DNA of 64,000 bases from Odiellus spinosus (Eukaryota > Arthropoda > Arachnida > Opiliones > Phalangiidae), in assembly GCA_963920705.1 (NCBI GenBank), contig OY987233.1, positions 868,001 to 932,000 on the forward strand, in the 5' to 3' direction. The notes under the pieces are model-generated. The model had not been told where the DNA came from. It did no database searches and was given only the letters and a program-made list of their open reading frames with translations. Both the position numbers and the translations under genes were made by a program. Position 1 is the first letter of the stretch. Every line of letters begins with the position of its first letter. Shown here in pieces: positions 3,459 through 64,000 of the stretch.

Positions 3459-3809
3459 CTTGGCAAATTTGTGGATCTACACTTGGCAAATTTGTGGATC
3501 TACATTTGGGAAATTTGTTGATCTACACTTGGCAAATTTGTGGATCTACACTTGTGAAATTTGTGCATCTACACTTGGGAAATTTGTGGATCTACACTTG
3601 GGAAATTTGTGGATCTACACTTGGGAAATTTGTGAATTTATACTTGGGAAATTTGTGGATTTATACTTGGGAAATTTGTGGATTTATACTGGGGAAATTT
3701 GTGGATTTATACTTGGGAAATTTGTGGAATTATACTTAGGAAATTTGTGGATTTATACTTGGGACATTTGTGGATCTAGACTTGGGACATTTGTGGATAT
3801 AGACCTAGG
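3459..3809 (+). repeat. Array start, about 15 monomers before the first HOR junction
   Basis: The first monomer is a perfect D-type copy, so the array edge is abrupt and not degraded. D, A and then B monomers follow. The stretch closes with C-like monomers (CTAGACTTGGGACATT, ATAGACCTAGGACATT). Confidence 0.85.
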
Positions 3810-4707
3810 ACATTTTTGAATTTATACTTGGGAAATTTGTGAATTTATACTTGGGAAATTTGTGGATTTATACTTGGGAAATTTGTGGATTTATACTTGG
3901 GGAATTTGTGGATTTATACTTGGGAAATTTGTGGATTTATACTTAGGAAATTTGTGGATTTACACTTGACAAATTTGTGGATCTACACTTTGCAAATTTG
4001 TGGATCTACACTTGGTAAATTTGTGGATCTACACTTGGCAAATTTGTGGATCTACACTTGGCAAATTTGTGGATCTACACTTGGCAAATTTGTGGATCTA
4101 CACTTGGCAAATTTTGTGGATCTACACTTGGGAAATTTGTGGATTTACACTTGGCAAATTTGTGGATCTACACTTGTGAAATTTGTGGATCTACACTTGG
4201 GAAATTTGTGGATCTACACTTGGGAAATTTGTGGATCTACACTTGGGAAATTTGTGGATCTACACTTGGGAAATTTGTGGATCTACACTTGGAAAATTTG
4301 TGGATCTACATTTGGGAAATTTGTGGATCACCACTTGGGAAATTTGTGGTTCTACACTTGGGAAATTTGTGGATCTACACTTGGGAAATTTGTGGATTTA
4401 TACTTGGGAAATTTGTGGATTTATACTTGGGAAATTTGTGGATTTATACTTGGGAAATTTGTGGATTTATACATGGGAAATTTGTGGATTTATACTTTGG
4501 AAATTTGTGGATTTATACTTGCGAAATTTGTGGATTTATAATTGGGAAATTTGTGGATTTATACTTGTTAAATTTGTGGGTCTAGACTTGGGACATTTGT
4601 GGATCTAGACTTGGGACATTTGTGGATCTAGACTTGGGATATTTGTGGATTTATACTTGGGACATTTGTTGATCTAGACTTGGGACATTTGTGGATCTAG
4701 ACTTGGG
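3810..4707 (+). repeat. HOR unit 1 (898 bp, 39 monomers)
   Basis: Opens with junction monomer CATTTTTGAATTTATA. One monomer near 4111 has an extra T (AAATTTTG), giving 39x23+1. It ends in an imperfect C block (4570-4707) interrupted by a GGATTTATA monomer. It lacks the 20-bp monomer and the CTACGC pair found in later units. Confidence 0.8.
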
Positions 4708-16459: not shown

Positions 16460-17860
16460 ACATTTTTGAATTTATACTTGGGAAATTTGTGGATTTATAC
16501 TTGGGAAATTTGTGGATTTATACTTGGGAAATTTGTGGATTTATACTTGGGAAATTTGTGGATTTATACTTAGGAAATTTGTGGATTTACACTTGGCAAA
16601 TTTGTGGATCTACACTTTGAAAATTTGTGGATCTACACTTGGGAAATTTGTGGATCTACACTTGGCAAATTTGTGGGTCTACACTTTGCAAATTTGTGGA
16701 TCTACACTTGGGAAATTTGTGGATCTACACTTGGGAAATTTGTGGATCTACACTTGGGAAATTTTCTGATCTACACTTGGGAAATTTGTGGATCTACACT
16801 TGGGAAATTTGTGGATCTACTCTTGGGAAATTGGATCTACACTAGGGAAATTTGTGGATCTACACTTGGGAAATTTGTGGATTTACACTTGGCAAATTTG
16901 TGGATCTACACTTGGTAAATTTGTGGATCTACACTCTGCAAATTTGTGGATCTACACTTGGCAAATTTGTGGATCTACACTTGGCAAATTTGTGGATCTA
17001 CACTTGGCAAATTTCTGGATCTACACTTGGCAAATTTGTGGATCTAAACTTGGGAAATTTTTGGATCTACACTTGGCAAATTTGTGGATCTACACTTTGC
17101 AAATTTGTGGACCTACACTTGGGAATATTTGTGGATCTACACTTGGCAATTTTGTGGGTCTACACTTTGCAAATTTGTGGATCTACACTTGGGAAATTTG
17201 TGGATCTACACTTGGGAAATTTGTGGATCTACACTTGGTAAATTTGTGGATCTACACTTGGGAAATTTTTGGATCTACACTTGGGAAATTTGTGGGTCTA
17301 CACTTTGCAAATTTGTGGATCTACACTTGGGAAATTTTTGGATCTACACTTGGGAAATTTGTGGATCTACACTTGTGAAATTTGTGGAGCTACGCTTGGG
17401 AAATATGTGGATCTACGCTTGGGAAATTTGTGGATCTACACATGGGAAATTTGTGGATCTACACTTGGGAAATTTGTGGATCTACACTTTTGAAATTTGT
17501 GGATATACATTTGGGAAATATGTGGATCTACACTTGGGAAATTTGTGGATCTACACTTGGAAAATTTGTGGATCTACACTTGGGAAATTTGTGGATCTAC
17601 ACTTGGGAAATTTGTGGATCTACACTTGGGAAATTTGTGGATTTATACTTGGGAAATTTGTGGAATTATACTTGGGAAATTTGTGGATTTATACTTGGGA
17701 AATTTGTGGAATTATACTTGGGAAATTTGTGGAACTAGACTTGGGACATTTGTGGATCTAGACTTGGGACATTTGTGGATCTAGACTTGGGACATTTGTG
17801 GATCTAGACTTGGGACATTTGTGGATCTAGACTTGGGACATTTGTGGATCTAGACTTGGG
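16460..17860 (+). repeat. HOR unit 11 (1401 bp, 61 monomers)
   Basis: One 20-bp monomer at 16822 and one 24-bp monomer near 17123 (GGGAATATTTG) give 61x23-3+1. C block of six. Confidence 0.8.
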
Positions 17861-18896
17861 ACATTTTTGAATTTATACTTGGGAAATTTGTGGATTTATA
17901 CTTGGGAAATTTGTGGATTTATACTTGGGAAATTTGTGGATTTATACTTAGGAAATTTGTGCATTTACACTTGGCAAATTTGTGGATCTACACTTTGAAA
18001 ATTTGTGGATCTACACTTGGGAAATTTGTGGATCTACACTTGGCAAATTTGTGGGTCTACACTTTGCAAATTTGTGGATCTACACTTGGGAAATTTGTGG
18101 ATCTACACTTGGGAAATTTGTGGATCTACACTTTGCAAATTTGTGGACCTACACTTGGGAATATTTGTGGATCTACACTTGGCAATTTTGTGGGTCTACA
18201 CTTTGCAAATTTGTGGATCTACACTTGGGAAATTTGTGGATCTACACTTGGGAAATTTGTGGATCTACACTTGGTAAATTTGTGGATCTACACTTGGGAA
18301 ATTTTTGGATCTACACTTGGGAAATTTGTGGGTCTACACTTTGCAAATTTGTGGATCTACACTTGGGAAATTTTTGGATCTACACTTGGGAAATTTGTGG
18401 ATCTACACTTGTGAAATTTGTGGAGCTACGCTTGGGAAATATGTGGATCTACGCTTGGGAAATTTGTGGATCTACACATGGGAAATTTGTGGATCTACAC
18501 TTGGGAAATTTGTGGATCTACACTTTTGAAATTTGTGGATATACATTTGGGAAATATGTGGATCTACACTTGGGAAATTTGTGGATCTACACTTGGAAAA
18601 TTTGTGGATCTACACTTGGGAAATTTGTGGATCTACACTTGGGAAATTTGTGGATCTACACTTGGGAAATTTGTGGATTTATACTTGGGAAATTTGTGGA
18701 ATTATACTTGGGAAATTTGTGGATTTATACTTGGGAAATTTGTGGAATTATACTTGGGAAATTTGTGGAACTAGACTTGGGACATTTGTGGATCTAGACT
18801 TGGGACATTTGTGGATCTAGACTTGGGACATTTGTGGATCTAGACTTGGGACATTTGTGGATCTAGACTTGGGACATTTGTGGATCTAGACTTGGG
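17861..18896 (+). repeat. HOR unit 12 (1036 bp, 45 monomers)
   Basis: Like unit 11, including the GGGAATATTTG monomer (near 18159), but missing about 16 monomers around the 20-bp monomer. It has GTGCATTTAC in place of GTGGATTTAC near 17960. C block of six. Confidence 0.8.
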
Positions 18897-20251
18897 ACAT
18901 TTTTGAATTTATACTTGGGAAATTTGTGGATTTATACTTGGGAAATTTGTGGATTTATACTTGGGAAATTTGTGGATTTATACTTAGGAAATTTGTGCAT
19001 TTACACTTGGCAAATTTGTGGATCTACACTTTGAAAATTTGTGGATCTACACTTGGGAAATTTGTGGATCTACACTTGGCAAATTTGTGGGTCTACACTT
19101 TGCAAATTTGTGGATCTACACTTGGGAAATTTGTGGATCTACACTTGGGAAATTTGTGGATCTACACTTGGGAAATTTTCTGATCTACACTTGGGAAATT
19201 TGTGGATCTACGCTTGGGAAATTTGTGGATCTACTCTTGGGAAATTGGATCTACACTAGGGAAATTTGTGGATCTACACTTGGGAAATTTGTGGATCTAC
19301 ACTCTGCAAATTTGTGGATCTACACTTGGCAAATTTGTGGATCTACACTTGGCAAATTTGTGGATCTACACTTGGCAAATTTCTGGATCTACACTTGGCA
19401 AATTTGTGGATCTAAACTTGGGAAATTTTTGGATCTACACTTGGCAAATTTGTGGATCTACACTTTGCAAATTTGTGGACCTACACTTGGGAATATTTGT
19501 GGATCTACACTTGGCAATTTTGTGGGTCTACACTTTGAAAATTTGTGGATCTACACTTGGGAAATTTGTGGATCTACACTTGGGAAATTTGTGGATCTAC
19601 ACTTGGTAAATTTGTGGATCTACACTTGGGAAATTTTTGGATCTACACTTGGGAAATTTGTGGGTCTACACTTTGCAAATTTGTGGATCTACACTTGGGA
19701 AATTTTTGGATCTACACTTGGGAAATTTGTGGATCTACACTTGTGAAATTTGTGGAGCTACGCTTGGGAAATATGTGGATCTACGCTTGGGAAATTTGTG
19801 GATCTACACATGGGAAATTTGTGGATCTACACTTGGGAAATTTGTGGATCTACACTTTTGAAATTTGTGGATATACATTTGGGAAATATGTGGATCTACA
19901 CTTGGGAAATTTGTGGATCTACACTTGGAAAATTTGTGGATCTACACTTGGGAAATTTGTGGATCTACACTTGGGAAATTTGTGGATCTACACTTGGGAA
20001 ATTTGTGGATTTATACTTGGGAAATTTGTGGAATTATACTTGGGAAATTTGTGGATTTATACTTGGGAAATTTGTGGAATTATGCTTGGGAAATTTGTGG
20101 AACTAGACTTGGGACATTTGTGGATCTAGACTTGGGACATTTGTGGATCTAGACTTGGGACATTTGTGGATCTAGACTTGGGACATTTGTGGATCTAGAC
20201 TTGGGACATTTGTGGATCTAGACTTGGGACATTTGTGGATCTAGACTTGGG
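18897..20251 (+). repeat. HOR unit 13 (1355 bp, 59 monomers)
   Basis: Keeps both the 20-bp monomer (near 19236) and GGGAATATTTG (near 19490), plus the GTGCATTTAC variant. C block of seven. Confidence 0.8.
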
Positions 20252-24600: not shown

Positions 24601-25050
24601 ATCTAAACTTGGCAAATTTGTGGATCTACACTTGGAAAATTTGTTAATCTACACTTGGCAAATTTGTGGATCTACACTTGGCAAATTTGTTTATCTATAC
24701 TTTGCAAATTTGTGGATCTACACTTGGGAAATTTGTGGATCTACACTTGGCAAATTTGTGGGTCTACACTTGGGAAATTTTTGGATCTACACTTGGGAAA
24801 TTTGTGGATTTATACTTGGGAAATTTGTGGAATTATACTTGGGAAATTTGTGGATTTATACTTGGGAAATTTGTGGAATTATACTTGGGAAATTTGTGGA
24901 ATTATACTTGGGAAATTTGTGGAACTAGACTTGGGACATTTGTGGATCTAGACTTGGGACATTTGTGGATCTAGACTTGGGACATTTGTGGATCTAGACT
25001 TGGGACATTTGTGGATCTAGACTTGGGACATTTGTGGATCTAGACTTGGG
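21651..25050 (+). repeat. Long HOR block Y, copy 1 (3400 bp, 148 monomers)
   Basis: Starts like the 1377-bp units (GGATTCATAC, 20-bp monomer near 21988), then diverges into a long block with its own 22- and 24-bp monomers near 22201, 23600 and 23690. It has a three-monomer mini C block near 22830-22890 and GTTTATTTATAC monomers. It is repeated 7531 bp later (29182-32581). Confidence 0.85.
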
Positions 25051-26427
25051 ACATTTTTGAATTTATACTTGGGAAATTTGTGGATTTATACTTGGGAAAT
25101 TTGTGGATTTATACTTGGGAAATTTGTGGATTTATACTTAGGAAATTTGTGGATTTACACTTGGCAAATTTGTGGATCTACACTTTGAAAATTTGTGGAT
25201 CTACACTTGGGAAATTTGTGGATCTACACTTGGCAAATTTGTGGGTCTACACTTTGCAAATTTGTGGGTCTACACTTGGGAAATTTGTGGATCTACACTT
25301 GGGAAATTTGTGGATCTACACTTGGGAAATTTTCTGATCTACACTTGGGAAATTTGTGGATCTACACTTGGGAAATTTGTGGATCTACTCTTGGGAAATT
25401 GGATCTACACTAGGGAAATTTGTGGATCTACACTTGGGAAATTTGTGGATTTACACTTGGCAAATTTGTGGATCTACACTTGGTAAATTTGTGGATCTAC
25501 ACTCTGCAAATTTGTGGATCTACACTTGGCAAATTTGTGGATCTACACTTGGCAAATTTGTGGATCTACACTTGGCAAATTTCTGGATCTACACTTGGCA
25601 AATTTGTGGATCTAAACTTGGGAAATTTTTGGATCTACACTTGGCAAATTTGTGGATCTACACTTTGCAAATTTGTGGACCTACACTTGGGAAATTTGTG
25701 GATCTACACTTGGCAATTTTGTGGGTCTACACTTTGCAAATTTGTGGATCTACACTTGGGAAATTTGTGGATCTACACTTGGGAAATTTGTGGATCTACA
25801 CTTGGTAAATTTGTGGATCTACACTTGGGAAATTTTTGGATCTACACTTGGGAAATTTGTGGGTCTACACTTTGCAAATTTGTGGATCTACACTTGGGAA
25901 ATTTTTGGATCTACACTTGGGAAATTTGTGGATCTACACTTGTGAAATTTGTGGAGCTACGCTTGGGAAATTTGTGGATCTACGCTTGGGAAATTTGTGG
26001 ATCTACACTTGGGAAATTTGTGGATCTACACTTGGGAAATTTGTGGATCTACACTTTTGAAATTTGTGGTTCTACACTTGGGAAATTTGTGGATTTATAC
26101 TTGGGAAATATGTGGATCTACACTTGGGAAATTTGTGGATCTACACTTGGAAAATTTGTGGATCTACACTTGGGAAATTTGTGGATCTACACTTGGGAAA
26201 TTTGTGGATCTACACTTGGGAAATTTGTGGATTTATACTTGGGAAATTTGTGGAATTATACTTGGGAAATTTGTGGATCTAGACTTGGGACATTTGTGGA
26301 TCTAGACTTGGGACATTTGTGGATCTAGACTTGGGACATTTGTGGATCTAGACTTGGGACATTTGTGGATCTAGACTTGGGACATTTGTGGATCTAGACT
26401 TGGGACATTTGTGAATCTAGACTTGGG
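25051..26427 (+). repeat. 1377-bp HOR, copy a
   Basis: 59 monomers of 23 bp plus one of 20 bp. It differs from copies b and c at several sites, for example GGATTTATAC where they have GGATTCATAC, CTTGGGAAA where they have CTTTGGAAA, and TTTGCAAAT near 25870 where they have TTTGTAAAT. C block of seven. Confidence 0.9.
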
Positions 26428-27804
26428 ACATTTTTGAATTTATACTTGGGAAATTTGTGGATTTATACTTGGGAAATTTGTGGATTCATACTTGGGAAAT
26501 TTGTGGATTTATACTTAGGAAATTTGTGGATTTACACTTGGCAAATTTGTGGATCTACACTTTGAAAATTTGTGGATCTACACTTGGGAAATTTGTGGAT
26601 CTACACTTGGCAAATTTGTGGGTCTACACTTTGCAAATTTGTGGATCTACACTTTGGAAATTTGTGGATCTACACTTGGGAAATTTGTGGATCTACACTT
26701 GGGAAATTTTCTGACCTACACTTGGGAAATTTGTGGATCTACACTTGGGAAATTTGTGGATCTACTCTTGGGAAATTGGATCTACACTAGGGAAATTTGT
26801 GGATCTACACTTGGGAAATTTGTGGATTTACACTTGGCAAATTTGTGGATCTACACTTGGTAAATTTGTGGATCTACACTCTGCAAATTTGTGGATCTAC
26901 ACTTGGCAAATTTGTGGATCTACACTTGGCAAATTTGTGGATCTACACTTGGCAAATTTCTGGATCTACACTTGGCAAATTTGTGGATCTAAACTTGGGA
27001 AATTTTTGGATCTACACTTGGCAAATTTGTGGATCTACACTTTGCAAATTTGTGGACCTACACTTGGGAAATTTGTGGATCTACACTTGGCAATTTTGTG
27101 GGTCTACACTTTGCAAATTTGTGGATCTACACTTGGGAAATTTGTGGATCTACACTTGGGAAATTTGTGGATCTACACTTGGTAAATTTGTGGATCTACA
27201 CTTGGGAAATTTTTGGATCTACACTTGGGAAATTTGTGGGTCTACACTTTGTAAATTTGTGGATCTACACTTGGGAAATTTTTGGATCTACACTTGGGAA
27301 ATTTGTGGATCTACACTTGTGAAATTTGTGGAGCTACGCTTGGGAAATTTGTGGATCTACGCTTGGGAAATTTGTGGATCTACACTTGGGAAATTTGTGG
27401 ATCTACACTTGGGAAATTTGTGGATCTACACTTTTGAAATTTGTGGTTCTACACTTGGGAAATTTGTGGATTTATACTTGGGAAATATGTGGATCTACAC
27501 TTGGGAAATTTGTGGATCTACACTTGGAAAATTTGTGGATCTACACTTGGGAAATTTGTGGATCTACACTTGGGAAATTTGTGGATCTACACTTGGGAAA
27601 TTTGTGGATTTATACTTGGGAAATTTGTGGAATTATACTTGGGAAATTTGTGGATCTAGACTTGGGACATTTGTGGATCTAGACTTGGGACATTTGTGGA
27701 TCTAGACTTGGGACATTTGTGGATCTAGACTTGGGACATTTGTGGATCTAGACTTGGGACATTTGTGGATCTAGACTTGGGACATTTGTGAATCTAGACT
27801 TGGG
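26428..27804 (+). repeat. 1377-bp HOR, copy b
   Basis: Same length and monomer order as copy a. I found no difference from copy c in any of the three frames compared. Confidence 0.9.
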
Positions 27805-29181
27805 ACATTTTTGAATTTATACTTGGGAAATTTGTGGATTTATACTTGGGAAATTTGTGGATTCATACTTGGGAAATTTGTGGATTTATACTTAGGAAAT
27901 TTGTGGATTTACACTTGGCAAATTTGTGGATCTACACTTTGAAAATTTGTGGATCTACACTTGGGAAATTTGTGGATCTACACTTGGCAAATTTGTGGGT
28001 CTACACTTTGCAAATTTGTGGATCTACACTTTGGAAATTTGTGGATCTACACTTGGGAAATTTGTGGATCTACACTTGGGAAATTTTCTGACCTACACTT
28101 GGGAAATTTGTGGATCTACACTTGGGAAATTTGTGGATCTACTCTTGGGAAATTGGATCTACACTAGGGAAATTTGTGGATCTACACTTGGGAAATTTGT
28201 GGATTTACACTTGGCAAATTTGTGGATCTACACTTGGTAAATTTGTGGATCTACACTCTGCAAATTTGTGGATCTACACTTGGCAAATTTGTGGATCTAC
28301 ACTTGGCAAATTTGTGGATCTACACTTGGCAAATTTCTGGATCTACACTTGGCAAATTTGTGGATCTAAACTTGGGAAATTTTTGGATCTACACTTGGCA
28401 AATTTGTGGATCTACACTTTGCAAATTTGTGGACCTACACTTGGGAAATTTGTGGATCTACACTTGGCAATTTTGTGGGTCTACACTTTGCAAATTTGTG
28501 GATCTACACTTGGGAAATTTGTGGATCTACACTTGGGAAATTTGTGGATCTACACTTGGTAAATTTGTGGATCTACACTTGGGAAATTTTTGGATCTACA
28601 CTTGGGAAATTTGTGGGTCTACACTTTGTAAATTTGTGGATCTACACTTGGGAAATTTTTGGATCTACACTTGGGAAATTTGTGGATCTACACTTGTGAA
28701 ATTTGTGGAGCTACGCTTGGGAAATTTGTGGATCTACGCTTGGGAAATTTGTGGATCTACACTTGGGAAATTTGTGGATCTACACTTGGGAAATTTGTGG
28801 ATCTACACTTTTGAAATTTGTGGTTCTACACTTGGGAAATTTGTGGATTTATACTTGGGAAATATGTGGATCTACACTTGGGAAATTTGTGGATCTACAC
28901 TTGGAAAATTTGTGGATCTACACTTGGGAAATTTGTGGATCTACACTTGGGAAATTTGTGGATCTACACTTGGGAAATTTGTGGATTTATACTTGGGAAA
29001 TTTGTGGAATTATACTTGGGAAATTTGTGGATCTAGACTTGGGACATTTGTGGATCTAGACTTGGGACATTTGTGGATCTAGACTTGGGACATTTGTGGA
29101 TCTAGACTTGGGACATTTGTGGATCTAGACTTGGGACATTTGTGGATCTAGACTTGGGACATTTGTGAATCTAGACTTGGG
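27805..29181 (+). repeat. 1377-bp HOR, copy c
   Basis: Apparently identical to copy b. It is followed directly by the second Y block, so three 1377-bp units and one Y block form the 7531-bp super-repeat. Confidence 0.9.
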
Positions 29182-32100
29182 ACATTTTTGAATTTATACT
29201 TGGGAAATTTGTGGATTTATACTTGGGAAATTTGTGGATTCATACTTGGGAAATTTGTGGATTTATACTTAGGAAATTTGTGGATTTACACTTGGCAAAT
29301 TTGTGGATCTACACTTTGAAAATTTGTGGATCTACACTTGGGAAATTTGTGGATCTACACTTGGCAAATTTGTGGGTCTACACTTTGCAAATTTGTGGAT
29401 CTACACTTTGGAAATTTGTGGATCTACACTTGGGAAATTTGTGGATCTACACTTGGGAAATTTTCTGACCTACACTTGGGAAATTTGTGGATCTACACTT
29501 GGGAAATTTGTGGATCTACTCTTGGGAAATTGGATCTACACTAGGGAAATTTGTGGATCTACACTTGGGAAATTTGTGGATTTACACTTGACAAATTTGT
29601 GGATCTACACTTGGTAAATTTGTGGATCTACACTTGGCAAATTTGTGGATCTACACTTGTCAAATTTGTGGATCTACACTTGGCAAATTTCTGGATCTAC
29701 ACTTGGCAAATTTGTGGATCTACACTTGGGAAATTTTTAATCTACACTTGGCAAATTTGTGGATCTAAACTTTGCAAATTTGTGGACCTACACTTGGGAA
29801 ATTTGTGGATCTACACTTGGCAATTTTGTGGGTCTACACTTTGCAAATTTGTGGATCTACACTTGGGAAATTTGTGGATCTACACTTGGGAAATTTGTGG
29901 ATCTACACCTGGGAAATTTGTGGATCTACACTTGGCAAATTTGTGGATCTACACTTGGCAAATTTGTGGATCTACACTTGGCAAATTTGTGGGTCTACAC
30001 TTTGCAAATTTGTGGATCTACACTTGGGAAATTTGTGGATCTACACTTGGAAAATTTGTGGATCTACACTTGGGAAATTTGTGGGTCTACACTTTGCAAA
30101 TTTGTGGATCTACACTTGGTAAATTTTTGGGTCTACACTTGGGAAATTTGTAGATCTACACTTGGGAAATTTGTGGATCTACACTTGGGAAATTTGTGGA
30201 TCTACACTTGGGAAATTTGTGGATTTATACTTGGGAAATTTGTGGAATTATACTTGGGAAATTTGTGGATTTATACTTCGGAAATTTGTGGATTTATACT
30301 TGGGAAATTTGTGGATTTATACTTGGGAAATTTGTGGATTTATACTTGAGAAATTTTTGGGTCTAGTCTTTGGACATTTGTGGATCTAGACTTGGGACAT
30401 TTGTGGATCTAGACTTGGGACATTTGTGGATCTATACTTGGGAAATTTGTGGATTTATACTTGGGAAATTTGTGGATTTATACTTGGGAAATTTGTGGAT
30501 TTATACTTGGGAAATTTGTGGATTTATATTTGGGAAATTTGTTTATTTATACTTGGGAAATTTGTGGATTTATACTTAGGAAATTTGTGGATTTACACTT
30601 GGCAAATTTATGGATCTACACTTGGGAAATTTTCTGATCTACACTTGGGAAATTTGTGGATCTACACTTGGGAAATTTGTGGATCTACACTTGAGAAATT
30701 TGTGGATCTACTCTTGGCAAATTTCTGGATTTTCACTTGGCAAATTTGTGGATCTACACTTGGTAAATTTGTGGATCTACACTTTGCAAATTTGTGGATC
30801 TACACTTGGCAAATTTGTGGATCTACACTTGGCAAATTTCTGGATCTACACTTGGCAAATTTGTGGATCTAAACTTGGGAAATTTTTGGATCTACACTTG
30901 GCAAATTTGTGGATCTACACTTTGCAAATTTGTGGATCTACACTTTGGAAATTTGTGGATCTACACTTGGCAATTTTGTGGGTCTACACTTTGCAAATTG
31001 GTGGATCTACACTTGGGAAATTTGTGGATCTACACTTGGGAAATTTGTGGATCTCCACTTGGTAAATTTGTGGATCTACACTTGGTAAATTTGTGGATCT
31101 ACACTTGGCAAATTTGTGGATCTACACTTGGCAAATTATGGATCTACACTTGGCAAATTTGTGGATCTACACTTGTCAAATTTGTGGATCTACACTTGGC
31201 AAATTTGTGGATCTACACTTGGCAAATTTTGTGGATCTACACTTGGCAAATTTATGGATCTACACTTGGCAAATTTTTGGATCTACACTTTGCAAATTTG
31301 TGGATCTACACTTGGGAAATTTGTGGATCTACACTTGGGAAATTTGTGGATCTACACTTGGGAAATTTGTGGATCTACACTTGGGTAATTTGTGGATCTA
31401 CACTTGGGAAATTTGTGGATCTACACTTGGGAAATTTGTGGATCTACACTTGGGAAATTTGTGAATTTATACTTGGGAAATTTGTGGATTTATACTTGGG
31501 AAATTTGTGGATTTATACTTGGGAAATTTGTGGATTTATACTTGGGAAATTTGTGGATTTATATTTGGGAAATTTGTTTATTTATACTTGGGAAATTTGT
31601 GGATTTATACTTGGAAAATTTGTGGATTTATACTTGGGAAATTTGTGGATTAATACTTGGGAAATTTGTGGATTTATACTTAGGAAATTTGTGGATTTAC
31701 ACTTTTCAAATTTATGGATCTTCACTTGGAAAATTTGTGGATCTACACTTGGTAATTTTGTGGATCTACACTTGGAAAATTTGTGGATCTACACTTGGGA
31801 AATTTGTGGATCTACACTTGGGAAATTTGTGGATCTACACTTGGGAAATTTGTGGATTTATACTTGGGAAATTTGTAGATTTATACTTGTGAAATTTATG
31901 GATTTATATTTGGGAAATTTGTTTATTTATACTTGGGAAATTTGTGGATTTATACTTGGAAAATTTGTGGATTTATACTTGGGAAATTTGTGGATTTATA
32001 CTTGGGAAATTTGTGGATTTATACTTGGGAAATTTGTGGATTTATACTTAGGAAATTTGTGGATTTACACTTGGCAAATTTATGGATCTACACTTGGTAA

Positions 32101-32581
32101 ATTTGTGGATCTACACTTGGCAAATTTGTGGATCTAAACTTGGCAAATTTGTGGATCTACACTTGGAAAATTTGTTAATCTACACTTGGCAAATTTGTGG
32201 ATCTACACTTGGCAAATTTGTTTATCTATACTTTGCAAATTTGTGGATCTACACTTGGGAAATTTGTGGATCTACACTTGGCAAATTTGTGGGTCTACAC
32301 TTGGGAAATTTTTGGATCTACACTTGGGAAATTTGTGGATTTATACTTGGGAAATTTGTGGAATTATACTTGGGAAATTTGTGGATTTATACTTGGGAAA
32401 TTTGTGGAATTATACTTGGGAAATTTGTGGAATTATACTTGGGAAATTTGTGGAACTAGACTTGGGACATTTGTGGATCTAGACTTGGGACATTTGTGGA
32501 TCTAGACTTGGGACATTTGTGGATCTAGACTTGGGACATTTGTGGATCTAGACTTGGGACATTTGTGGATCTAGACTTGGG
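29182..32581 (+). repeat. Long HOR block Y, copy 2 (3400 bp)
   Basis: Matches 21651-25050 at an offset of 7531 bp. The only difference I found is A at 30872 against C at 23341 (CTAAAC against CTACAC). Confidence 0.85.
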
Positions 32582-37574: not shown

Positions 37575-39261
37575 TGGGTCTACACTTTGCAAATTTGTGG
37601 ATCTACACTTGGGAAATTTTTGGATCTACACTTGGGAAATTTTTGGATCTACACTTGGGAAATTTGTGGATCTACACTTGGGAAATTTGTGGATCTACAC
37701 TTGGGAAATTTGTGGATCTACACTTGGCAAATTTGTGGGTCTACACTTTGCAAATTTGTGGATCTACACTTGGGAAATTTGTGGATCTACACTTGGGAAA
37801 TTTTTGGATCTACACTTGGGAAATTTGTGGATCTACACTTGGGAAATTTGTGGATCTACACTTGGGAAATTTGTGGATCTACTCTTGGGAAATTTGTGGA
37901 TCTACACTAGGGAAATTTGTGGATCTACACTTGGGAAATTTGTGGATCTACACTTGGGAAATTTGTGGATCTACACTTGGCAAATTTGTGGATCTACACT
38001 TGGCAAATTTGTGGATTTATACTTGGGAAATTTGTGGATTTATACTTGGGAAATTTGTGGATTTATACTTGGGAAATTTGTGGATTTATATTTGGGAAAT
38101 TTGTTTATTTATACTTGGGAAATTTGTGGATTTATACTTTTAAAATTTGTGGATTTATACTTGGGAAATTTGTGGATTTATACTTGGGAAATTTGTGGAT
38201 TTAGACTTAGGAAATTTGTGGATTTACACTTTTCAAATTTATGGATCTTCACTTGGTAAATTTGTGGATCTACACTTGGTAAATTTGTGGATCTACACTT
38301 GGAAAATTTGTGGATCTACACTTGGGAAATTTGTGGATCTACACTTGGGAAATTTGTGGATTTATACTTGTTAAATTTGTTTATTTATACTTGGGAAATT
38401 TGTGGATTTATACTTTGCAAATTTGTGGATCCACACTTGGGAAATTTGTGGATCTACACTTGGCAAATTTGTGGGTCTACACTTTGCAAATTTGTGGATC
38501 TACACTTGGGAAATTTTTGGATCTACACTTGGGAAATTTGTGGATCTACACTTGGGAAATTTTTGGATCTACACTTGGGAAATTTGTGGATCTACACTTG
38601 GGAAATTTGTGGATCTACACTTGGGAAATTTGTGGATCTACTCTTGGGAAATTTGTGAATCTACACTAGGGAAATTTGTGGATCTACACTTGGGAAATTT
38701 GTGGATCTACACTTGGGAAATTTGTGGATCTATACAAAGCAAAATTTGGATTTATACTTGGAAAATTTGTGGATCTATTCTTTGAAAATTTTTGGATATA
38801 TGCTTGGAAATTTGTTGATCTATACTTGGGAAATATGTGTATCTATACTTGGGATTTTTGTGGATCTACACTTGGCAAATTTGTGGATCTACACTTTGCA
38901 AATTTGTGTATCTACACTTGGGAAATTTGTGGATCTACACTTGGGAAATTTGTGGATCTACACTTGGGAAATTGGTGGATCTACACTTGGGAAATTTGTG
39001 GATCTACACTTGGGAAATTTGTGGATTTATATTTGGGAAATTTGTTTATTTATACTTGGGAAATTTGTGGATTTATACTTTGAAAATTTGTGGATTTATA
39101 CTTGGGAAATTTGTGGATTTATACTTGGGAAATTTGTGGATTTAGACTTAGGAAATTTGTGGATTTACACTTTTCAAATTTATGGATCTTCACTTGGTAA
39201 ATTTGTGGATCTACACTTGGTAAATTTGTGGATCTACACTTGGAAAATTTGTGGATTTATA
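37575..39261 (+). repeat. HOR segment with the first ACAAAGC marker monomer
   Basis: Mixed A, B and E monomers. A 22-bp degenerate monomer with ACAAAGCAAAATTTGG at 38734 is followed about 70 bp later by another 22-bp form (GCTTGGAAATTTGTTG). Parts recur at offsets of 2686, 4293 and 4316 bp to the right. Confidence 0.7.
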
Positions 39262-42200
39262 CTTGGGAAATTTGTGGATTTATACTTTTCAAATTTATGG
39301 ATCTTCACTTGGTAAATTTGTGGATCTACACTTGGGAAATTTGTGGATCTACACTTGGGAAATTTGTGGATTTATACTTGGGAAATTTGTGGATTTATAC
39401 TTGGGAAATTTGTGGATTTATACTTTGCAAATTTGTGGATCTACACTTGGGAAATTTGTGGATCTACACTTGGCAAATTTGTGGGTCTACACTTTGCAAA
39501 TTTGTGGATCTACACTTGGGAAATTTTTGGATCTACACTTGGGAAATTTGTGGATCTACACTTGGGAAATTTTTGGATCTACACTTGGGAAATTTGTGGA
39601 TCTACACTTGGGAAATTTGTGGATCTACACTTGGGAAATTTGTGGATCTACACTTGGGAAATTTGTGGATCTACACTTGGGAAATTTGTGGATCTATACA
39701 AAGCAAAATTTGGATTTATACTTGGAAAATTTGTGGATCTATTCTTTGAAAATTTGGGGATATATGCTTGGAAATTTGTTGATCTATACTTGGGAAATAT
39801 GTGTATCTATACTTGGGATTTTTGTGGATCTACACTTGGCAAATTTGTGGATCTACACTTTGCAAATTTGTTTATCTACACTTGGGAAATTTGTGGATTT
39901 ACACTTGCAAATTTGTGGATTTACACTTGGCAAATTTGTGGATCTACACTTTGCAAATTTGTGGATCTTCACTTGGGAAATTTGTGGATCTACACTTGGG
40001 AAATTGGTGGATCTACACTTGGGAAATTTGTGGATCTACACTTGGCAAATTTGTGGATCTACACTTGGCAAATTTGTGGATCTAAACTTGGCAAATTTGT
40101 GGATCTACACTTGGAAAATTTGTGGATCTACACTTGGCAAATTTGTGGTTCTACACTTGGGAAATTTGTGGATCTACACTTGGCAAATTTGTTTATCTAT
40201 ACTTTGCAAATTTGTGGATCTACACTTGGGAAATTTGTGGATCTACACTTGGCAAATTTGTGGGTCTACACTTTGCAAATTTGTGGATCTACACTTGGGA
40301 AATTTTTGGATCTACACTTGGGAAATTTTTGGATCTACACTTGGGAAATTTGTGGATCTACACTTGGGAAATTTGTGGATCTACACTTGGGAAATTTGTG
40401 GATCTACACTTGGCAAATTTGTGGGTCTACACTTTGCAAATTTGTGGATCTACACTTGGGAAATTTGTGGATCTACACTTGGGAAATTTTTGGATCTACA
40501 CTTGGGAAATTTGTGGATCTACACTTGGGAAATTTGTGGATCTACACTTGGGAAATTTGTGGATCTACTCTTGGGAAATTTGTGGATCTACACTAGGGAA
40601 ATTTGTGGATCTACACTTGGGAAATTTGTGGATCTACACTTGGGAAATTTGTGGATCTACACTTGGCAAATTTGTGGATCTACACTTGGCAAATTTGTGG
40701 ATTTATACTTGGGAAATTTGTGGATTTATACTTGGGAAATTTGTGGATTTATACTTGGGAAATTTGTGGATTTATACTTGGGAAATTTGTGGATTTATAT
40801 TTGGGAAATTTGTTTATTTATACTTGGGAAATTTGTGGATTTATACTTTTAAAATTTGTGGATTTATACTTGGGAAATTTGTGGATTTATACTTTTCAAA
40901 TTTATGGATCTTCACTTGGTAAATTTGTGGATCTACACTTGGGAAATTTGTGGATCTACACTTGGGAAATTTGTGGATTTATACTTGGGAAATTTGTGGA
41001 TTTATACTTGGGAAATTTGTGGATTTATACTTTGCAAATTTGTGGATCTACACTTGGGAAATTTGTGGATCTACACTTGGCAAATTTGTGGGTCTACACT
41101 TTGCAAATTTGTGGATCTACACTTGGGAAATTTTTGGATCTACACTTGGGAAATTTGTGGATCTACACTTGGGAAATTTTTGGATCTACACTTGGGAAAT
41201 TTGTGGATCTACACTTGGGAAATTTGTGGATCTACACTTGGGAAATTTGTGGATCTACACTTGGGAAATTTGTGGATCTACACTTGGGAAATTTGTGGAT
41301 CTATACAAAGCAAAATTTGGATTTATACTTGGAAAATTTGTGGATCTATTCTTTGAAAATTTGGGGATATATGCTTGGAAATTTGTTGATCTATACTTGG
41401 GAAATATGTGTATCTATACTTGGGATTTTTGTGGATCTACACTTGGCAAATTTGTGGATCTACACTTTGCAAATTTGTGTATCTACACTTGGGAAATTTG
41501 TGGATTTACACTTGCAAATTTGTGGATTTACACTTGGCAAATTTGTGGATCTACACTTTGCAAATTTGTGGATCTTCACTTGGGAAATTTGTGGATCTAC
41601 ACTTGGGAAATTGGTGGATCTACACTTGGGAAATTTGTGGATCTACACTTGGCAAATTTGTGGATCTACACTTGGCAAATTTGTGGATCTAAACTTGGCA
41701 AATTTGTGGATCTACACTTGGAAAATTTGTGGATCTACACTTGGCAAATTTGTGGTTCTACACTTGGGAAATTTGTGGATCTACACTTGGCAAATTTGTT
41801 TATCTATACTTTGCAAATTTGTGGATCTACACTTGGGAAATTTGTGGATCTACACTTTGCAAATTTGTGGGTCTACACTTTGCAAATTTGTGGATCTACA
41901 CTTGGGAAATTTTTGGATCTACACTTGGGAAATTTTTGGATCTACACTTGGGAAATTTGTGGATCTACACTTGGGAAATTTGTGGATCTACACTTGGGAA
42001 ATTTGTGGATCTACACTTGGCAAATTTGTGGGTCTACACTTTGCAAATTTGTGGATCTACACTTGGGAAATTTGTGGATCTACACTTGGGAAATTTTTGG
42101 ATCTACACTTGGGAAATTTGTGGATCTACACTTGGGAAATTTGTGGATCTACACTTGGGAAATTTGTGGATCTACTCTTGGGAAATTTGTGGATCTACAC

Positions 42201-42475
42201 TAGGGAAATTTGTGGATCTACACTTGGGAAATTTGTGGATCTACACTTGGGAAATTTGTGGATCTACACTTGGCAAATTTGTGGATCTACACTTGGCAAA
42301 TTTGTGGATTTATACTTGGGAAATTTGTGGATTTATACTTGGGAAATTTGTGGATTTATACTTGGGAAATTTGTGGATTTATACTTGGGAAATTTGTGGA
42401 TTTATATTTGGGAAATTTGTTTATTTATACTTGGGAAATTTGTGGATTTATACTTTTAAAATTTGTGGATTTATA
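39262..42475 (+). repeat. 1607-bp tandem duplication (two copies)
   Basis: Each copy is 70 monomers including three of 22 bp (70x23-3). Between copies I found T at 39872 against G at 41479, and G at 40251 against T at 41858. Both copies carry the ACAAAGC marker (39698, 41305). Edges are approximate. Confidence 0.85.
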
Positions 42476-44640
42476 CTTGGGAAATTTGTGGATTTATACT
42501 TGGGAAATTTGTGGATTTAGACTTAGGAAATTTGTGGATTTACACTTTTCAAATTTATGGATCTTCACTTGGTAAATTTGTGGATCTACACTTGGTAAAT
42601 TTGTGGATCTACACTTGGAAAATTTGTGGATCTACACTTGGGAAATTTGTGGATCTACACTTGGGAAATTTGTGGATTTATACTTGTTAAATTTGTTTAT
42701 TTATACTTGGGAAATTTGTGGATTTATACTTTGCAAATTTGTGGATCCACACTTGGGAAATTTGTGGATCTACACTTGGCAAATTTGTGGGTCTACACTT
42801 TGCAAATTTGTGGATCTACACTTGGGAAATTTTTGGATCTACACTTGGGAAATTTGTGGATCTACACTTGGGAAATTTTTGGATCTACACTTGGGAAATT
42901 TGTGGATCTACACTTGGGAAATTTGTGGATCTACACTTGGGAAATTTGTGGATCTACTCTTGGGAAATTTGTGAATCTACACTAGGGAAATTTGTGGATC
43001 TACACTTGGGAAATTTGTGGATCTACACTTGGGAAATTTGTGGATCTATACAAAGCAAAATTTGGATTTATACTTGGAAAATTTGTGGATCTATTCTTTG
43101 AAAATTTGGGGATATATGCTTGGAAATTTGTTGATCTATACTTGGGAAATATGTGTATCTATACTTGGGATTTTTGTGGATCTACACTTGGCAAATTTGT
43201 GGATCTACACTTTGCAAATTTGTGTATCTACACTTGGGAAATTTGTGGATCTACACTTGGGAAATTTGTGGATCTACACTTGGGAAATTTGTGGATCTAC
43301 ACTTGGGAAATTTGTGGATTTATATTTGGGAAATTTGTTTATTTATAGTTGGGAAATTTGTGGATTTATACTTTGAAAATTTGTGGATTTATACTTGGGA
43401 AATTTGTGGATTTATACTTGGGAAATTTGTGGATTTAGACTTAGGAAATTTGTGGATTTACACTTTTCAAATTTATGGATCTTCACTTGGTAAATTTGTG
43501 GATCTACACTTGGTAAATTTGTGGATCTACACTTGGAAAATTTGTGGATTTATACTTGGGAAATTTGTGGATTTATACTTTTCAAATTTATGGATCTTCA
43601 CTTGGTAAATTTGTGGATCTACACTTGGGAAATTTGTGGATCTACACTTGGGAAATTTGTGGATTTATACTTGGGAAATTTGTGGATTTATACTTGGGAA
43701 ATTTGTGGATTTATACTTTGCAAATTTGTGGATCTACAATTGGGAAATTTGTGGATCTACACTTGGCAAATTTGTGAGTCTACACTTTGCAAATTTGTGG
43801 ATCTACACTTGGGAAATTTTTGGATCTACACTTGGGAAATTTGTGGATCTACACTTGGGAAATTTTTGGATCTACACTTGGGAAATTTGTGGATCTACAC
43901 TTGGGAAATTTGTGGATCTACACTTGGGAAATTTGTGGATCTACTCTTGGGAAATTTGTGAATCTACACTAGGGAAATTTGTGGATCTACACTTGGGAAA
44001 TTTGTGGATCTACACTTGGGAAATTTGTGGATCTATACAAAGCAAAATTTGGATTTATACTTGGAAAATTTGTGGATCTATTCTTTGAAAATTTGGGGAT
44101 ATATGCTTGGAAATTTGTTGATCTATACTTGGGAAATATGTGTATCTATACTTGGGATTTTTGTGGATCTACACTTGGCAAATTTGTGGATCTACACTTT
44201 GCAAATTTGTGTATCTACACTTGGGAAATTTGTGGATCTACACTTGCAAATTTGTGGATTTACACTTGGCAAATTTGTGGATCTACACTTTGCAAATTTG
44301 TGGATCTTCACTTGGGAAATTTGTGGATCTACACTTGGGAAATTGGTGGATCTACACTTGGGAAATTTGTGGATCTACACTTGGGAAATTTGTGGATCTA
44401 CACTTGGGAAATTTGTGGATCTACACTTGGGAAATTTGTGGATCTACACTTGGGAAATTTGTGGATCTACACTTGGGAAATTTATGGATCTACACTTGGG
44501 AAATTTGTGGATCTACACTTGGGAAATTTGTGGATCTACACTTGGGAAATTTTTGGATCTACACATGGGAAATTTGTGGATCTACACTTGGGAAATTTGT
44601 GGATTTATACTTGGGAAATTTCTGGATTTATACTTGGGAA
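42476..44640 (+). repeat. Further ACAAAGC-marked HOR units
   Basis: Much of this is a copy of 38.2-39.3 kb at offsets of 4316 and then 4293 bp. Marker monomers lie at 43050 and 44037, 987 bp apart. Private changes include GTTTATTTATAGTTG near 43341 and CTACAATTGG near 43738. Confidence 0.7.
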
Positions 44641-54944: not shown

Positions 54945-56612
54945 CTACACTTGGGAAATTTGTGGATCTACACTTGGGAAATTTGTGGATCTACACTTGG
55001 GAAATTTATGGATCTACACTTGGGAAATTTGTGGATCTACACTTGGGAAATTTGTGGATCTACACTTGGGAAATTTTTGGATCTACACTTGGGAAATTTG
55101 TGGATCTACACTTGGGAAATTTGTGGATTTATACTTGGGAAATTTGGGGATTTATACTTGGGAAATATGTGTATATATACTTGGGATTTTTGTGGATCTA
55201 CACTTGGCAAATTTGTGGATCTACACTTTGCAAATTTGTGGATCTACACTTGGGAAATTTGTGTATCTACACTTGCAAATTTGAGGATTTACACTTGGCA
55301 AATTTGTGGATCTATTCTTTGCAAATTTGTGTATCTACACTTGGGAAATTTGTGGATCTACACTTGGGAAATTTGTGGATCTACACTTGGGAAATATGTG
55401 GATCTACACTTGGGAAATTTGTGGATCTACACTTGGGAAATTTGTGGATCTACACTTGGGAAATTTGTGGATCTACACTTGGGAAATTTGTGGATCTACA
55501 CTTGGGAAATTTGTGGATCTACACTTGGGAAATTTGTGGATCTACACTTGGGAAATTTGTGGATCTACACTTGGGAAATTTGTGGATCTACACTTGGGAA
55601 ATTTGTGGATCTACACTTGGGAAATTTGTGGATCTACACTTGGGAAATTTGTGGATCTATAATTTGCAAATTTGTGGATATACACTTGGGAAATTTGTGG
55701 ATCTACACTTGGCAAATTTGTGGATCTACACTTTGTTATTTTGTGGATCTACACTTGGAAAATTTGTGGATCTACACTTGGGAAATTTGTGGATCTACAC
55801 TTGGGAAATTTATGGATCTACACTTGGGAAATTTGTGGATCTACACTTGGGAAATTTGTGGATCTACACTTGGGAAATTTTTGGATCTACACTTGGGAAA
55901 TTTGTGGATCTACACTTGGGAAATTTGTGGATTTATACTTGGGAAATTTGGGGATTTATACTTGGGAAATATGTGTATATATACTTGGGATTTTTGTGGA
56001 TCTACACTTGGCAAATTTGTGGATCTACACTTTGCAAATTTGTGGATCTACACTTGGGAAATTTGTGTATCTACACTTGCAAATTTGAGGATTTACACTT
56101 GGCAAATTTGTGGATCTATTCTTTGCAAATTTGTGTATCTACACTTGGGAAATTTGTGGATCTACACTTGGGAAATTTGTGGATCTACACTTGGGAAATT
56201 TGTGGATCTACACTTGGGAAATTTGTGGATCTACACTTGGGAAATTTGTGGATCTACACTTGGGAAATTTGTGGATCTACACTTGGGAAATTTGTGGATC
56301 TACACTTGGGAAATTTGTGGATCTACACTTGGGAAATTTGTGGATCTACACTTGGGAAATTTGTGGATCTACACTTGGGAAATTTGTGGATCTACACTTG
56401 GGAAATTTGTGGATCTACACTTGGGAAATTTGTGGATCTACACTTGGGAAATTTGTGGATCTATAATTTGCAAATTTGTGGATATACACTTGGGAAATTT
56501 GTGGATCTACACTTGGCAAATTTGTGGATCTACACTTTGTTATTTTGTGGATCTACACTTGGAAAATTTGTGGATCTACACTTGGGAAATTTGTGGATCT
56601 ACACTTGGGAAA
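54945..56612 (+). repeat. 804-bp tandem duplication, about 2.07 copies
   Basis: 35 monomers with one of 22 bp. I found one difference: A at 55396 (AAATATG) against T at 56200. Copies diverge at about 56613. The plus-strand frame 54618-57185, 855 codons, spans this segment and is open because no stop-bearing variant falls in it. Confidence 0.85.
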
Positions 56613-59410: not shown

Positions 59411-62400
59411 AAATTTGTGGATCTACACTTTGTTAATTTGTGGATCTACACTTGGAAAATTTGTGGATCTACACTTGGGAAATTTGTGGATCTACACTTG
59501 GGAAATTTGTGGATCTACACTTGGGAAAATTGTGGATCTACTCTTGGGAAATTTGTGGATCTACACTAGTAAAATTTGTGGATCTACACTTGGGAAATTT
59601 GTGGATCTACACTTGGGAAATTTGTGGATCTACACTTGGGAAATTTGTGGATTTATACTTGGGAAATTTGTGGATTTATACTTGTGAAATTTGTGGATTT
59701 ATAATTGGGAAATTTGTGGATTTATATTTGGGAAATTTGTGGATCTACACCTGGGAAATTTGTGGATCTACACTTGGGAAATTTGTGGATCTACACTTGG
59801 AAAATTTGTGGATCTACACTTGGGAAATTTGTGGATTTATACTTGGAAATTTGTGGATTTATTCTTGGGAAATTTGTGGATTTATACTTATGAAATTTGT
59901 GGATTTATATTTTGGAAATTTGTGGATTTATACTTGGGAAATTTGTGGACTTATACTTGGGAAATTTGTGGATTTATACTTAGGAAATTTGTGGATTTAC
60001 ACTTGGCAAATTTGTGGATCTACACTTGGCAAATTTGTGGATCTACACTTGGCAAATTTGTGGATCTACACTTGGGAAATTTGTGGATCTACTCTTGCAA
60101 ATTTGTGGATCTACACTTGGCAAATTTGTGGATCTACACTTGGGAAATTTGTGGATCTACACTTGGCAAATTTGTGGGTCTACACTTTGTAAATTTGTGG
60201 ATCTACACTTGGGAAATTTGTGGATCTACACTTGGGAAATTTTTGGATCTACACTTGGAAAATTTGTGGATCTACACTTGGGAAATTTGTGGATCTACAC
60301 TTGGGAAATTTGTGGATCTACACTTGGGAAAATTGTGGATCTACTCTTGGGAAATTTGTGGATCTACACTAGTAAAATTTGTGGATCTACACTTGGGAAA
60401 TTTGTGGATCTACACTTGGGAAATTTGTGAATCTACACTTGGGAAATTTGTGGATTTATACTTGGCAAATTTGGGGATTTATACTTGGGAAATTTGTGGA
60501 TTTATACTTGTGAAATTTGTGGATTTATAATTGGGAAATTTGTGAATTTATATTTGGGAAATTTGTGGATCTACACTTGGGAAATTTGTGGATCTACACT
60601 TGGGAAATTTGTGGATTTATACTTGGGAAATTTGTGGATTTATACTTGGAAATTTGTGGATCTACACTTGGGAAATTTGTGGATCTACACTTGCGAAATT
60701 TGTGGATCTACACTTGGGAAATTTGTGGATCTACACTTGGGAAATTTGTGGATTTATACTTGGGAAATTTGTGGATTTATACTTGGAAATTTGTGGATTT
60801 ATTCTTGGGAAATTTGTGGATTTATACTTAGGAAATTTGTAGATTTATATTTGGGAAATTTGTGGATTTATACTTGGGAAATTTGTGGACTTATACTTGG
60901 GAAATTTGTGGATTTATACTTAGGAAATTTGTGGATTTACACTTGGCAAATTTGTGGATCTACACTTGGCAAATTTGTGGATCTACACTTTGCAAATTTG
61001 TGGATCTACACTTGGGAAATTTCTGGATCTACACTTTGCAAATTTGTGGATCTACACTTGGGAAATTTGTGGATCTACACTTGGGAAATTTGTGGATCTA
61101 CACTTGGGAAATTTGTGGATCTATAATTTGCAAATTTGTGGATATACACTTGGGAAATTTGTGGATCTACACTTGGCAAATTTGTGGATCTACACTTTGT
61201 TAATTTGTGGATCTACACTTGGAAAATTTGTGGATCTACACTTGGCAAATTTGTGGGTCTACACTTTGTAAATTTGTGGATCTACACTTGGGAAATTTGT
61301 GGATCTACACTTGGGAAATTTTTGGATCTACACTTGGAAAATTTGTGGATCTACACTTGGGAAATTTGTGGATCTACACTTGGGAAATTTGTGGATCTAC
61401 ACTTGGGAAAATTGTGGATCTACTCTTGGGAAATTTGTGGATCTACACTAGTAAAATTTGTGGATCTACACTTGGGAAATTTGTGGATCTACACTTGGGA
61501 AATTTGTGAATCTACACTTGGGAAATTTGTGGATTTATACTTGGCAAATTTGGGGATTTATACTTGGGAAATTTGTGGATTTATACTTGTGAAATTTGTG
61601 GATTTATAATTGGGAAATTTGTGAATTTATATTTGGGAAATTTGTGGATCTACACTTGGGAAATTTGTGGATCTACACTTGGGAAATTTGTGGATTTATA
61701 CTTGGGAAATTTGTGGATTTATACTTGGAAATTTGTGGATCTACACTTGGGAAATTTGTGGATCTACACTTGCGAAATTTGTGGATCTACACTTGGGAAA
61801 TTTGTGGATCTACACTTGGGAAATTTGTGGATTTATACTTGGGAAATTTGTGGATTTATACTTGGAAATTTGTGGATTTATTCTTGGGAAATTTGTGGAT
61901 TTATACTTAGGAAATTTGTAGATTTATATTTGGGAAATTTGTGGATTTATACTTGGGAAATTTGTGGACTTATACTTGGGAAATTTGTGGATTTATACTT
62001 AGGAAATTTGTGGATTTACACTTGGCAAATTTGTGGATCTACACTTGGCAAATTTGTGGATCTACACTTGGCAAATTTGTGGATCTACACTTTGTTAATT
62101 TGTGGATCTACACTTGGAAAATTTGTGGATCTACACTTGGGAAATTTGTGGATCTACACTTGGGAAATTTGTGGATCTACACTTGGGAAAATTGTGGATC
62201 TACTCTTGGGAAATTTGTGGATCTACACTAGTAAAATTTGTGGATCTACACTTGGGAAATTTGTGGATCTACACTTGGGAAATTTGTGGATCTACACTTG
62301 GGAAATTTGTGGATTTATACTTGGGAAATTTGTGGATTTATACTTGTGAAATTTGTGGATTTATAATTGGGAAATTTGTGGATTTATATTTGGGAAATTT

Positions 62401-64000
62401 GTGGATCTACACCTGGGAAATTTGTGGATCTACACTTGGGAAATTTGTGGATCTACACTTGGAAAATTTGTGGATCTACACTTGGGAAATTTGTGGATTT
62501 ATACTTGGAAATTTGTGGATTTATTCTTGGGAAATTTGTGGATTTATACTTATGAAATTTGTGGATTTATATTTTGGAAATTTGTGGATTTATACTTGGG
62601 AAATTTGTGGAATTATACTTGGGAAATTTGTGGATTTATACTTAGGAAATTTGTGGATTTACACTTGGCAAGTTTGTGGATCTACACTTGGCAAATTTGT
62701 GGATCTACACTTGGCAAATTTGTGGATCTACACTTGGGAAATTTGTGGATCTACTCTTGCAAATTTGTGGATCTACACTTGGCAAATTTGTGGATCTACA
62801 CTTGGGAAATTTGTGGATCTACACTTGGCAAATTTGTGGGTCTACACTTTGTAAATTTGTGGATCTACACTTGGGAAATTTGTGGATCTACACTTGGGAA
62901 ATTTTTGGATCTACACTTGGAAAATTTGTGGATCTACACTTGGGAAATTTGTGGATCTACACTTGGGAAATTTGTGGATCTACACTTGGGAAAATTGTGG
63001 ATCTACTCTTGGGAAATTTGTGGATCTACACTAGTAAAATTTGTGGATCTACACTTGGGAAATTTGTGGATCTACACTTGGGAAATTTGTGAATCTACAC
63101 TTGGGAAATTTGTGGATTTATACTTGGCAAATTTGGGGATTTATACTTGGGAAATTTGTGGATTTATACTTGTGAAATTTGTGGATTTATAATTGGGAAA
63201 TTTGTGAATTTATATTTGGGAAATTTGTGGATCTACACTTGGGAAATTTGTGGATCTACACTTGGGAAATTTGTGGATTTATACTTGGGAAATTTGTGGA
63301 TTTATACTTGGAAATTTGTGGATTTATTCTTGGGAAATTTGTGGATTTATACTTAGGAAATTTGTGGATTTATATTTGGGAAATTTGTGGATTTATACTT
63401 GGGAAATTTGTGGACTTATACTTGGGAAATTTGTGGATTTATACTTAGGAAATTTGTGGATTTACACTTGGCAAATTTGTGGATCTACACTTGGGAAATT
63501 TGTGGATCTACACTTTGCAAATTTGTGGATCTACACTTGGGAAATTTGTGGATCTACACTTTGCAAATTTGTGGATCTACACTTGGGAAATTTGTGGATC
63601 TACACTTGGGAAATTTGTGGATCTACACTTGGGAAATTTGTGGATCTATAATTTGCAAATTTGTGGATATACACTTGGGAAATTTGTGGATCTACACTTG
63701 GCAAATTTGTGGATCTACACTTGGCAAATTTGTGGATCTACACTTTGTTAATTTGTGGATCAACACTTGGAAAATTTGTGGATCTACACTTGGGAAATTT
63801 GTGGATCTACACTTGGGAAATTTGTGGATCTACACTTGGGAAAATTGTGGATCTACTCTTGGGAAATTTGTGGATCTACACTAGTAAAATTTGTGGATCT
63901 ACACTTGGGAAATTTATGGATCTACACTTGGGAAATTTGTGGATCTACACTTGGGAAATTTGTGGATTTATACTTGGGAAAAATGTGGATTTATACTTGT
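59411..64000 (+). repeat. 2662-bp super-repeat with nested 1079-bp repeat, to the window edge
   Basis: About 59.41-60.65 kb recurs at 62.07-63.31 kb (offset 2662). I found C at 59950 against A at 62612, and A at 60010 against G at 62672. Between them lies a 1079-bp tandem repeat (60.2-61.0 against 61.3-62.1 kb). ACTAGT sites: 59565, 60368, 61447, 62227, 63030, 63880. The array continues beyond 64000. Confidence 0.8.

Follow-up and report, generated by a model that had tools for sequence, protein, structure and literature searches.

The window analysed here, 64,000 nucleotides of the arachnid Odiellus spinosus (assembly GCA_963920705.1, contig OY987233.1), is filled beyond its left edge by satellite DNA: a long head-to-tail array of a 23-bp unit. 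This is most probably a non-coding and likely heterochromatic satellite of a CENP-A-bearing arthropod, grown and homogenised by homology-guided unequal exchange. The contigs of this one assembly (443 Mb, 286 contigs) are named C1, C2, and so on; the window is C11:868001-932000, on a contig of 23.9 Mb. It looks like a slice of a block longer than 1 Mb at one end of C11.

Growth would proceed where 23-bp repeats pair out of alignment, through exchange between sister chromatids or through the repair of breaks. In a single event a block would be copied or lost, its size ranging from a few monomers up to a few hundred; point mutations would tag the copies; and later events would duplicate blocks that already contain copies. 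The nested pattern would then be a record of turnover, requiring no function of its own.

Monomer, register, and orientation

Tandem Repeats Finder, run on window positions 1 to 16000, reports a repeat from 3456 with period 23, 546 copies, and 92% matches. Wrap-around alignment of the window from 3441 onward, with two end fragments dropped, parses the array into 2636 monomers with the consensus ACACTTGGGAAATTTGTGGATCT: 2557 are exactly 23 bp, and the remainder are 20-25 bp. They comprise 227 distinct forms, and the 23-bp monomers average 93.2% identity to the consensus.

Register and orientation persist over 264 kb that include the window (C11:848001-1112000). Two end fragments apart, the parse of this stretch yields 11,285 monomers, none shorter than 20 or longer than 25 bp, and three monomer 9-mers occur 15,699 times forward and never in reverse. 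Parsing and strand counts together confirm what a sequence-only reading of the window had proposed, a one-orientation 23-bp satellite over 3459-64000, and show it to be unbroken. The narrow range of monomer lengths suggests in-register unequal exchange; joins made at random points would be expected to fall in phase about once in 23.

Layered block duplications

Above the monomer, kilobase-scale blocks are duplicated (Table 1). All six blocks named in the sequence-only reading (1377, 943, 1607, 804, 2662, and 7531 bp) were recovered, the largest measuring 7530 bp, with 99.7-100% identity across the compared stretches. For 13 block pairs aligned base by base, identity is 98.7-100%, against the monomer-to-consensus mean of 93.2%. 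Kilobase-scale blocks are thus more alike than their own monomers, the mark of an irregular higher-order repeat (HOR). The observed monomer order in the window gives a best block score of 818 and 60 lags above 60. Twenty shuffles of that order never exceed 16.6 and produce no lag above 60; 20 first-order Markov re-orderings peak at 77.7 and average 0.5 such lags. Monomers that occur once only make up 14.6% of the first 3 kb of the array, versus 0-7.7% in the remaining bins.

The earlier claim of at least three repeat levels holds locally: lengths of 23, 1377, and 7530 bp are nested at about 20.1-34.5 kb, whereas the 943-, 1607-, 804-, and 2662-bp blocks are separate duplications elsewhere. To call these blocks HORs was generous. 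They are real at the kilobase scale, but the 1377-bp unit has only 3.4 consecutive copies and the other large tandem blocks about 2.

The wider stretch of 264 kb behaves similarly. Block copies were detected over 77% of its monomers, and 260 block pairs score above 90 (offset median 12.3 kb, maximum 74.5 kb). Among the 12 block pairs richest in consecutive copies, one stands at 3.4 (the 1377-bp unit) and eleven at 2.0, the eleven being of different sizes; for units shorter than 60 monomers, no run exceeds 4.0 copies, reached by a two-monomer unit with a score of 27. Because runs of large blocks in these 264 kb extend to at most 3.4 consecutive copies, an alpha-satellite-type HOR array was rejected. 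The layers are mostly single tandem duplications, and blocks mostly in two copies, of differing sizes, are the pattern expected from repeated in-register duplication of arbitrary blocks.

The stretch is also divided into domains: at C11 905, 915, 1020, and 1070 kb a cut severs no block pair scoring above 50, and at each cut from 935 to 960 kb more than 100 such pairs are severed.

Extent on C11 and across the genome

On C11 the satellite sets in at base 2252, following a segment (C11:1-2251) whose reading frames resemble those of a polinton/adintovirus-type element. It is continuous at 848-1112 kb, an inserted retroelement aside, and also fills 1212-1222 and 1312-1327 kb. Single probes found it at 100, 300, 500, 700, 1340, 1360, 1400, 1450, 1460, 1470, and 1480 kb. 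Degenerate, reversed satellite is present at 1500, 1520, and 1550 kb, two short matches at 1600 kb, and no satellite in the probes at 1490, 1800, 2200, and 3000 kb. The listed matches to a rare-variant pattern span 56 to 1424 kb, every one of them on the + strand. The extent of the C11 array (2252 to 1.48 Mb) is therefore a sampled rather than a continuously read one. With more than 1 Mb assembled on one contig, judged by this sampling, the duplication history becomes readable event by event, and the array is well suited to a study of the size spectrum of unequal exchange.

Genome-wide, the exact consensus has 74,915 matches and a pattern for an ATAC-type subfamily has 107,691; the reversed-pattern control gave 0 for each. 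The two patterns coincide at 12 of 3080 places in a C11 sample, and so together represent about 180,000 monomers, or 4 Mb. The satellite may total roughly 20 Mb, a hand estimate that could be off severalfold, made from pattern frequencies in the C11 sample and in eight chosen probes (20 matches in 144 monomers).

Positions of pattern matches on individual contigs are those listed, and the number of contigs is a minimum. Arrays occupy at least six large contigs: C2, C8, C11, C12, C15, and C16. This distribution led to rejection of a sex-chromosome-specific satellite, a role that the sequence-only reading had allowed. Satellite forms the very start of C8, C12, C15, and C16; C12 also carries matches, to either strand, as far in as 2.5 Mb. 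On C2 the array is interstitial, running from 27.09 Mb to 27.96 Mb or beyond in a contig of 34.5 Mb. Its listed matches switch from the + strand (up to 27.53 Mb) to the - strand (27.67 Mb onward), and the probe between them, at 27.60 Mb, read sequence other than satellite. On C1 a single, isolated match was listed. Starts of unplaced contigs were probed in 38 cases: 3 are satellite (C21, C90, C160), 10 only N, and 25 something else. The C2 and C13 starts are also only N.

Likeness between copies is local. A C11 piece gave at least 183 matches, all those listed being on C11 (39 of 2758 candidates scored), and a C15 piece gave at least 279, the ten best on C15 and the eleventh on C12 (40 of 2205 candidates scored). 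This counts in favour of exchange.

The repeat (TTAGG)n, named as the arthropod telomere motif in an excerpt of PMC8977481, was found at 12 of the 18 probed ends of C1-C18 (C1-C7, C11, C12, C15, C17, and C18) and was absent from the probed ends of C8, C9, C10, C13, C14, and C16. C10 and C14 have a telomere at the contig start, and a TCAGG-like stretch lies at the C1 start. On C11, C12, and C15, satellite at the start is paired with (TTAGG)n at the opposite end. Several contig ends, and the neighbourhood of the C2 array, carry other short satellites (Table 1), their monomers judged by eye to be about 14-21 bp long; the genome thus seems to hold a library of them.

Origin and role of the array

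Simulations that allowed only duplication, deletion, and point mutation were compared with the array on seven measures, in sets of 24 and 72 runs, the latter judged on its 14 best and 4 worst. They produced monomer diversity and identity comparable but not identical to those of the array, together with many long blocks; 24 of the 72 runs gave at least 30 lags above 60. Several points nevertheless weigh against the exchange account. No run matched all seven measures (24 runs; 14 best and 4 worst of 72). In the 14 best of the 72 runs the largest-block scores were 166-605, compared with 818 observed, and the 24-run set reached larger blocks (up to 2056), but with monomers too diverged. Exchange is not separated here from replication slippage, gene conversion, and break-induced replication. 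On the same side stand the interstitial C2 array, the lone C1 match, and a search for the CENP-C domain (CENP-C_C), blind to introns, which returned 0 matches with 4 of 4 candidates scored.

Might the exact block repeats be partly an assembly artefact, through false duplications or wrong joins? The 943- and 1036-bp copies are mismatch-free, and in blocks of 3099 and 4805 bp from the wider stretch all monomers are identical between copies. Other copies, however, are set apart by substitutions spread along their length (13 in 5.5 kb; 16 in 1.4 kb), and block copies recur throughout the 264 kb, which leaves an artefact improbable. There is next to no chance that the array encodes a repetitive protein, even though the consensus is stop-free in three + frames, giving a 23-residue repeat, and stop-to-stop + frames within the array run to 857 aa. 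Twenty shuffles of monomer order yield longest frames of 626 aa on average and 858 at most; frames of at least 300 aa number 29, against a shuffled mean of 26.7, and stops 637, against 635.7. Since the reading frames stay within the range of the shuffles, protein coding was rejected.

A further alternative is that C11 and a group of chromosomes have the array itself as their functional centromere, the DNA onto which CENP-A is loaded, while the remaining chromosomes would rely on other short satellites. A candidate CENP-A gene, known from a single exon, does exist: a divergent H3-like sequence, open over 75 codons, at C8:14476880-14477113 (51% to H3). Two H3/CENP-A chimeras head the PDB matches of this exon; an H3.3 chain comes next, followed by a Cse4 fusion and CENP-A, and canonical H3 ranks only slightly lower. 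According to an excerpt of PMC4359364, all monocentric insects examined have CenH3 and all holocentric ones lack it; this pattern, together with the CENP-A-like exon, favours localised centromeres. The three contigs with satellite at one end and telomere at the other fit a centromeric role, as does Timema douglasi, whose CenH3 is described in part of PMC11691646 as binding repeats common to groups of autosomes, some of them in HORs. Opposed to it are C1, with its one match; C8 and C16, where satellite at the start is accompanied by no telomere at the other end; and the CENP-C result, whereas Ndc80 was found. On balance a centromere made of this array seems unlikely. Somewhat less likely again is its extension to the whole satellite library (monomers of 14-23 bp): each family would be fixed on one chromosome group and act there as the CENP-A centromere, the 23-bp family doing so for C11 and several others through megabase arrays with few orientation flips. 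If true, the 23-bp unit would rank with the shortest monomers found at the centromeres of monocentric animals, and CENP-A on the array would bring a 23-bp monomer into the class of centromere repeats specific to chromosome groups. A heterochromatic place is plausible, and so is a pericentromeric one, since the arrays sit where an assembly might break if its chromosomes are nearly telocentric. The single match on C1 and the interstitial position on C2 count against any simple positional rule, and the CENP-C search found nothing.

A retroelement inserted in the array

The left edge of the window holds a long terminal repeat (LTR) retroelement, presumably of Ty3/gypsy type from its domain order. 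The element is a recent insertion inside the array. Its window LTR and a second LTR at C11:866547-866762 are identical at 216 of 216 bases, the element as a whole (C11:866547-871458) measures 4912 bp, and satellite resumes beyond the second LTR. Position 3459 was therefore rejected as the true array edge, despite the higher share of once-only monomers in the first 3 kb: it is a retroelement junction. No target-site duplication is clearly recognisable at the element. A genome-wide search with the LTR, every one of its 14 candidates scored, gave 14 matches, spread over C7, C11, C12, C13, C15, and C17, and the idea of a satellite-seeking element was dropped on that evidence. Nor is the element a special domain border, because one block pair above score 50 crosses it, compared with none at four of 40 ordinary cuts. 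Nuclear mitochondrial COX1 pieces lie on C17 (at 1.1, 2.96, 3.13, 4.24, and 4.38-4.39 Mb), and two of these copies sit a few kb from copies of the window LTR. The mitochondrial COX1 of the assembly is readable under code 5, which, like the (TTAGG)n telomeres, marks the genome as that of an arthropod.

Table 1. Features of the window and short satellites elsewhere (window positions unless a contig is named)
Feature	Position	Strand	Remarks
23-bp satellite array	3459..64000	+	slice of array sampled C11:2252 to about 1.48 Mb
7530-bp offset duplication	20128-25590 and 27658-33121	+	5450 identical columns, 13 mismatches, 1 gap
1377-bp unit	24927..29583 (24927-28206 = 26304-29583)	+	about 3.4 consecutive copies; 6 mismatches
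1036-bp tandem duplication	17092..19163	+	exact
943-bp tandem duplication	35650..37558	+	0 mismatches in 966 compared bases
1607-bp tandem duplication	39259..42495	+	2 mismatches in 1630
804-bp tandem duplication	54970..56600	+	1 mismatch in 827
2662-bp offset duplication	59402-60641 and 62064-63303	+	2 mismatches in 1240
gag-pol reading frame of LTR retroelement	2..3202	-	uninterrupted; RVT_1, RNase H, integrase H2C2 by Pfam; runs off window
LTR of inserted retroelement	3243..3458	-	about 4 inner-edge bases may lie outside LTR
Other short satellites	C2 28.0, 28.5, 30.0 Mb; C18 start; C8 end; C17 start; C13 end		
Other short satellites, unplaced contigs	C35, C40, C150, C280		

Comparison with known systems

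The sequence-only reading did not recognise the family, and the literature bears this out: the main texts contained no match to the monomer. No main text searched has both halves of the consensus on one strand, supplements being outside the search; of four half-strings, one or more occur in 33 papers, and the only paper with two contains a half together with that half's reverse complement. A word search for 23-bp satellites returned 8 papers, none recognisable, from the excerpts retrieved, as describing the window family. An exact 30-mer had 0 matches in prokaryote and viral contigs, and is thus little informative.

Alpha-satellite HOR arrays are similar in having units of distinct monomers and nearly identical block copies. 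Their monomer is 171 bp, and their many consecutive HOR copies are not seen in the 264 kb of the 23-bp array examined. The bovine 1.706 satellite has a 23-bp subrepeat within a "patchwork" unit, a likeness by description. The horse 2PI satellite, from an excerpt of PMC9024551, also has a 23-bp repeat; here too the likeness is one of description.

The same reading had called such depth of hierarchy unusual on a short monomer, a view that the published record contradicts (Melters 2013; Warburton 2008, PMC2588610). The excerpts of Melters 2013 give HORs in 76 of the 171 species with Sanger data, observed more often with short monomers due to read length. Those of Warburton 2008 describe, for "simple" human arrays, HOR lengths of 5.8, 3.36, and 3.6 kb, and for a 61-bp variable number tandem repeat (VNTR) an irregular pattern of 1.6- and 2.5-kb HORs. 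Human HsatII and GAATG arrays, in the same source, share with the window family a very short monomer, kilobase-scale higher-order blocks, domains, and, in some arrays, orientation flips. Their monomer sequence is different, and a 3.6-kb HOR spans one whole array there, in contrast to at most 3.4 consecutive large-block copies here. The 61-bp VNTR, at Xp22.33, is close in its short monomer, irregular HORs, and complex arrangement; it covers 18 kb, whereas the window family exceeds 1 Mb by sampling and occupies several contigs.

Among arthropods, the centromere repeats of Timema douglasi (PMC11691646, in part) are likewise common to chromosome groups, with some HORs and a 5-bp motif among the Timema repeats. 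CenH3 binding is shown there, while the 23-bp array is known from its sequence. The satellites of Tribolium madens, as described in part of PMC13081366, also form megabase regions with orientation flips; however, their units derive from a sequence of about 110 bp and the flips are macro-dyads, whereas those of the 23-bp family are seen as strands of matches and probes. Set beside these systems, the 23-bp satellite appears to be a family new to the searched literature, in which a layering already known from other short monomers recurs at the kilobase scale.

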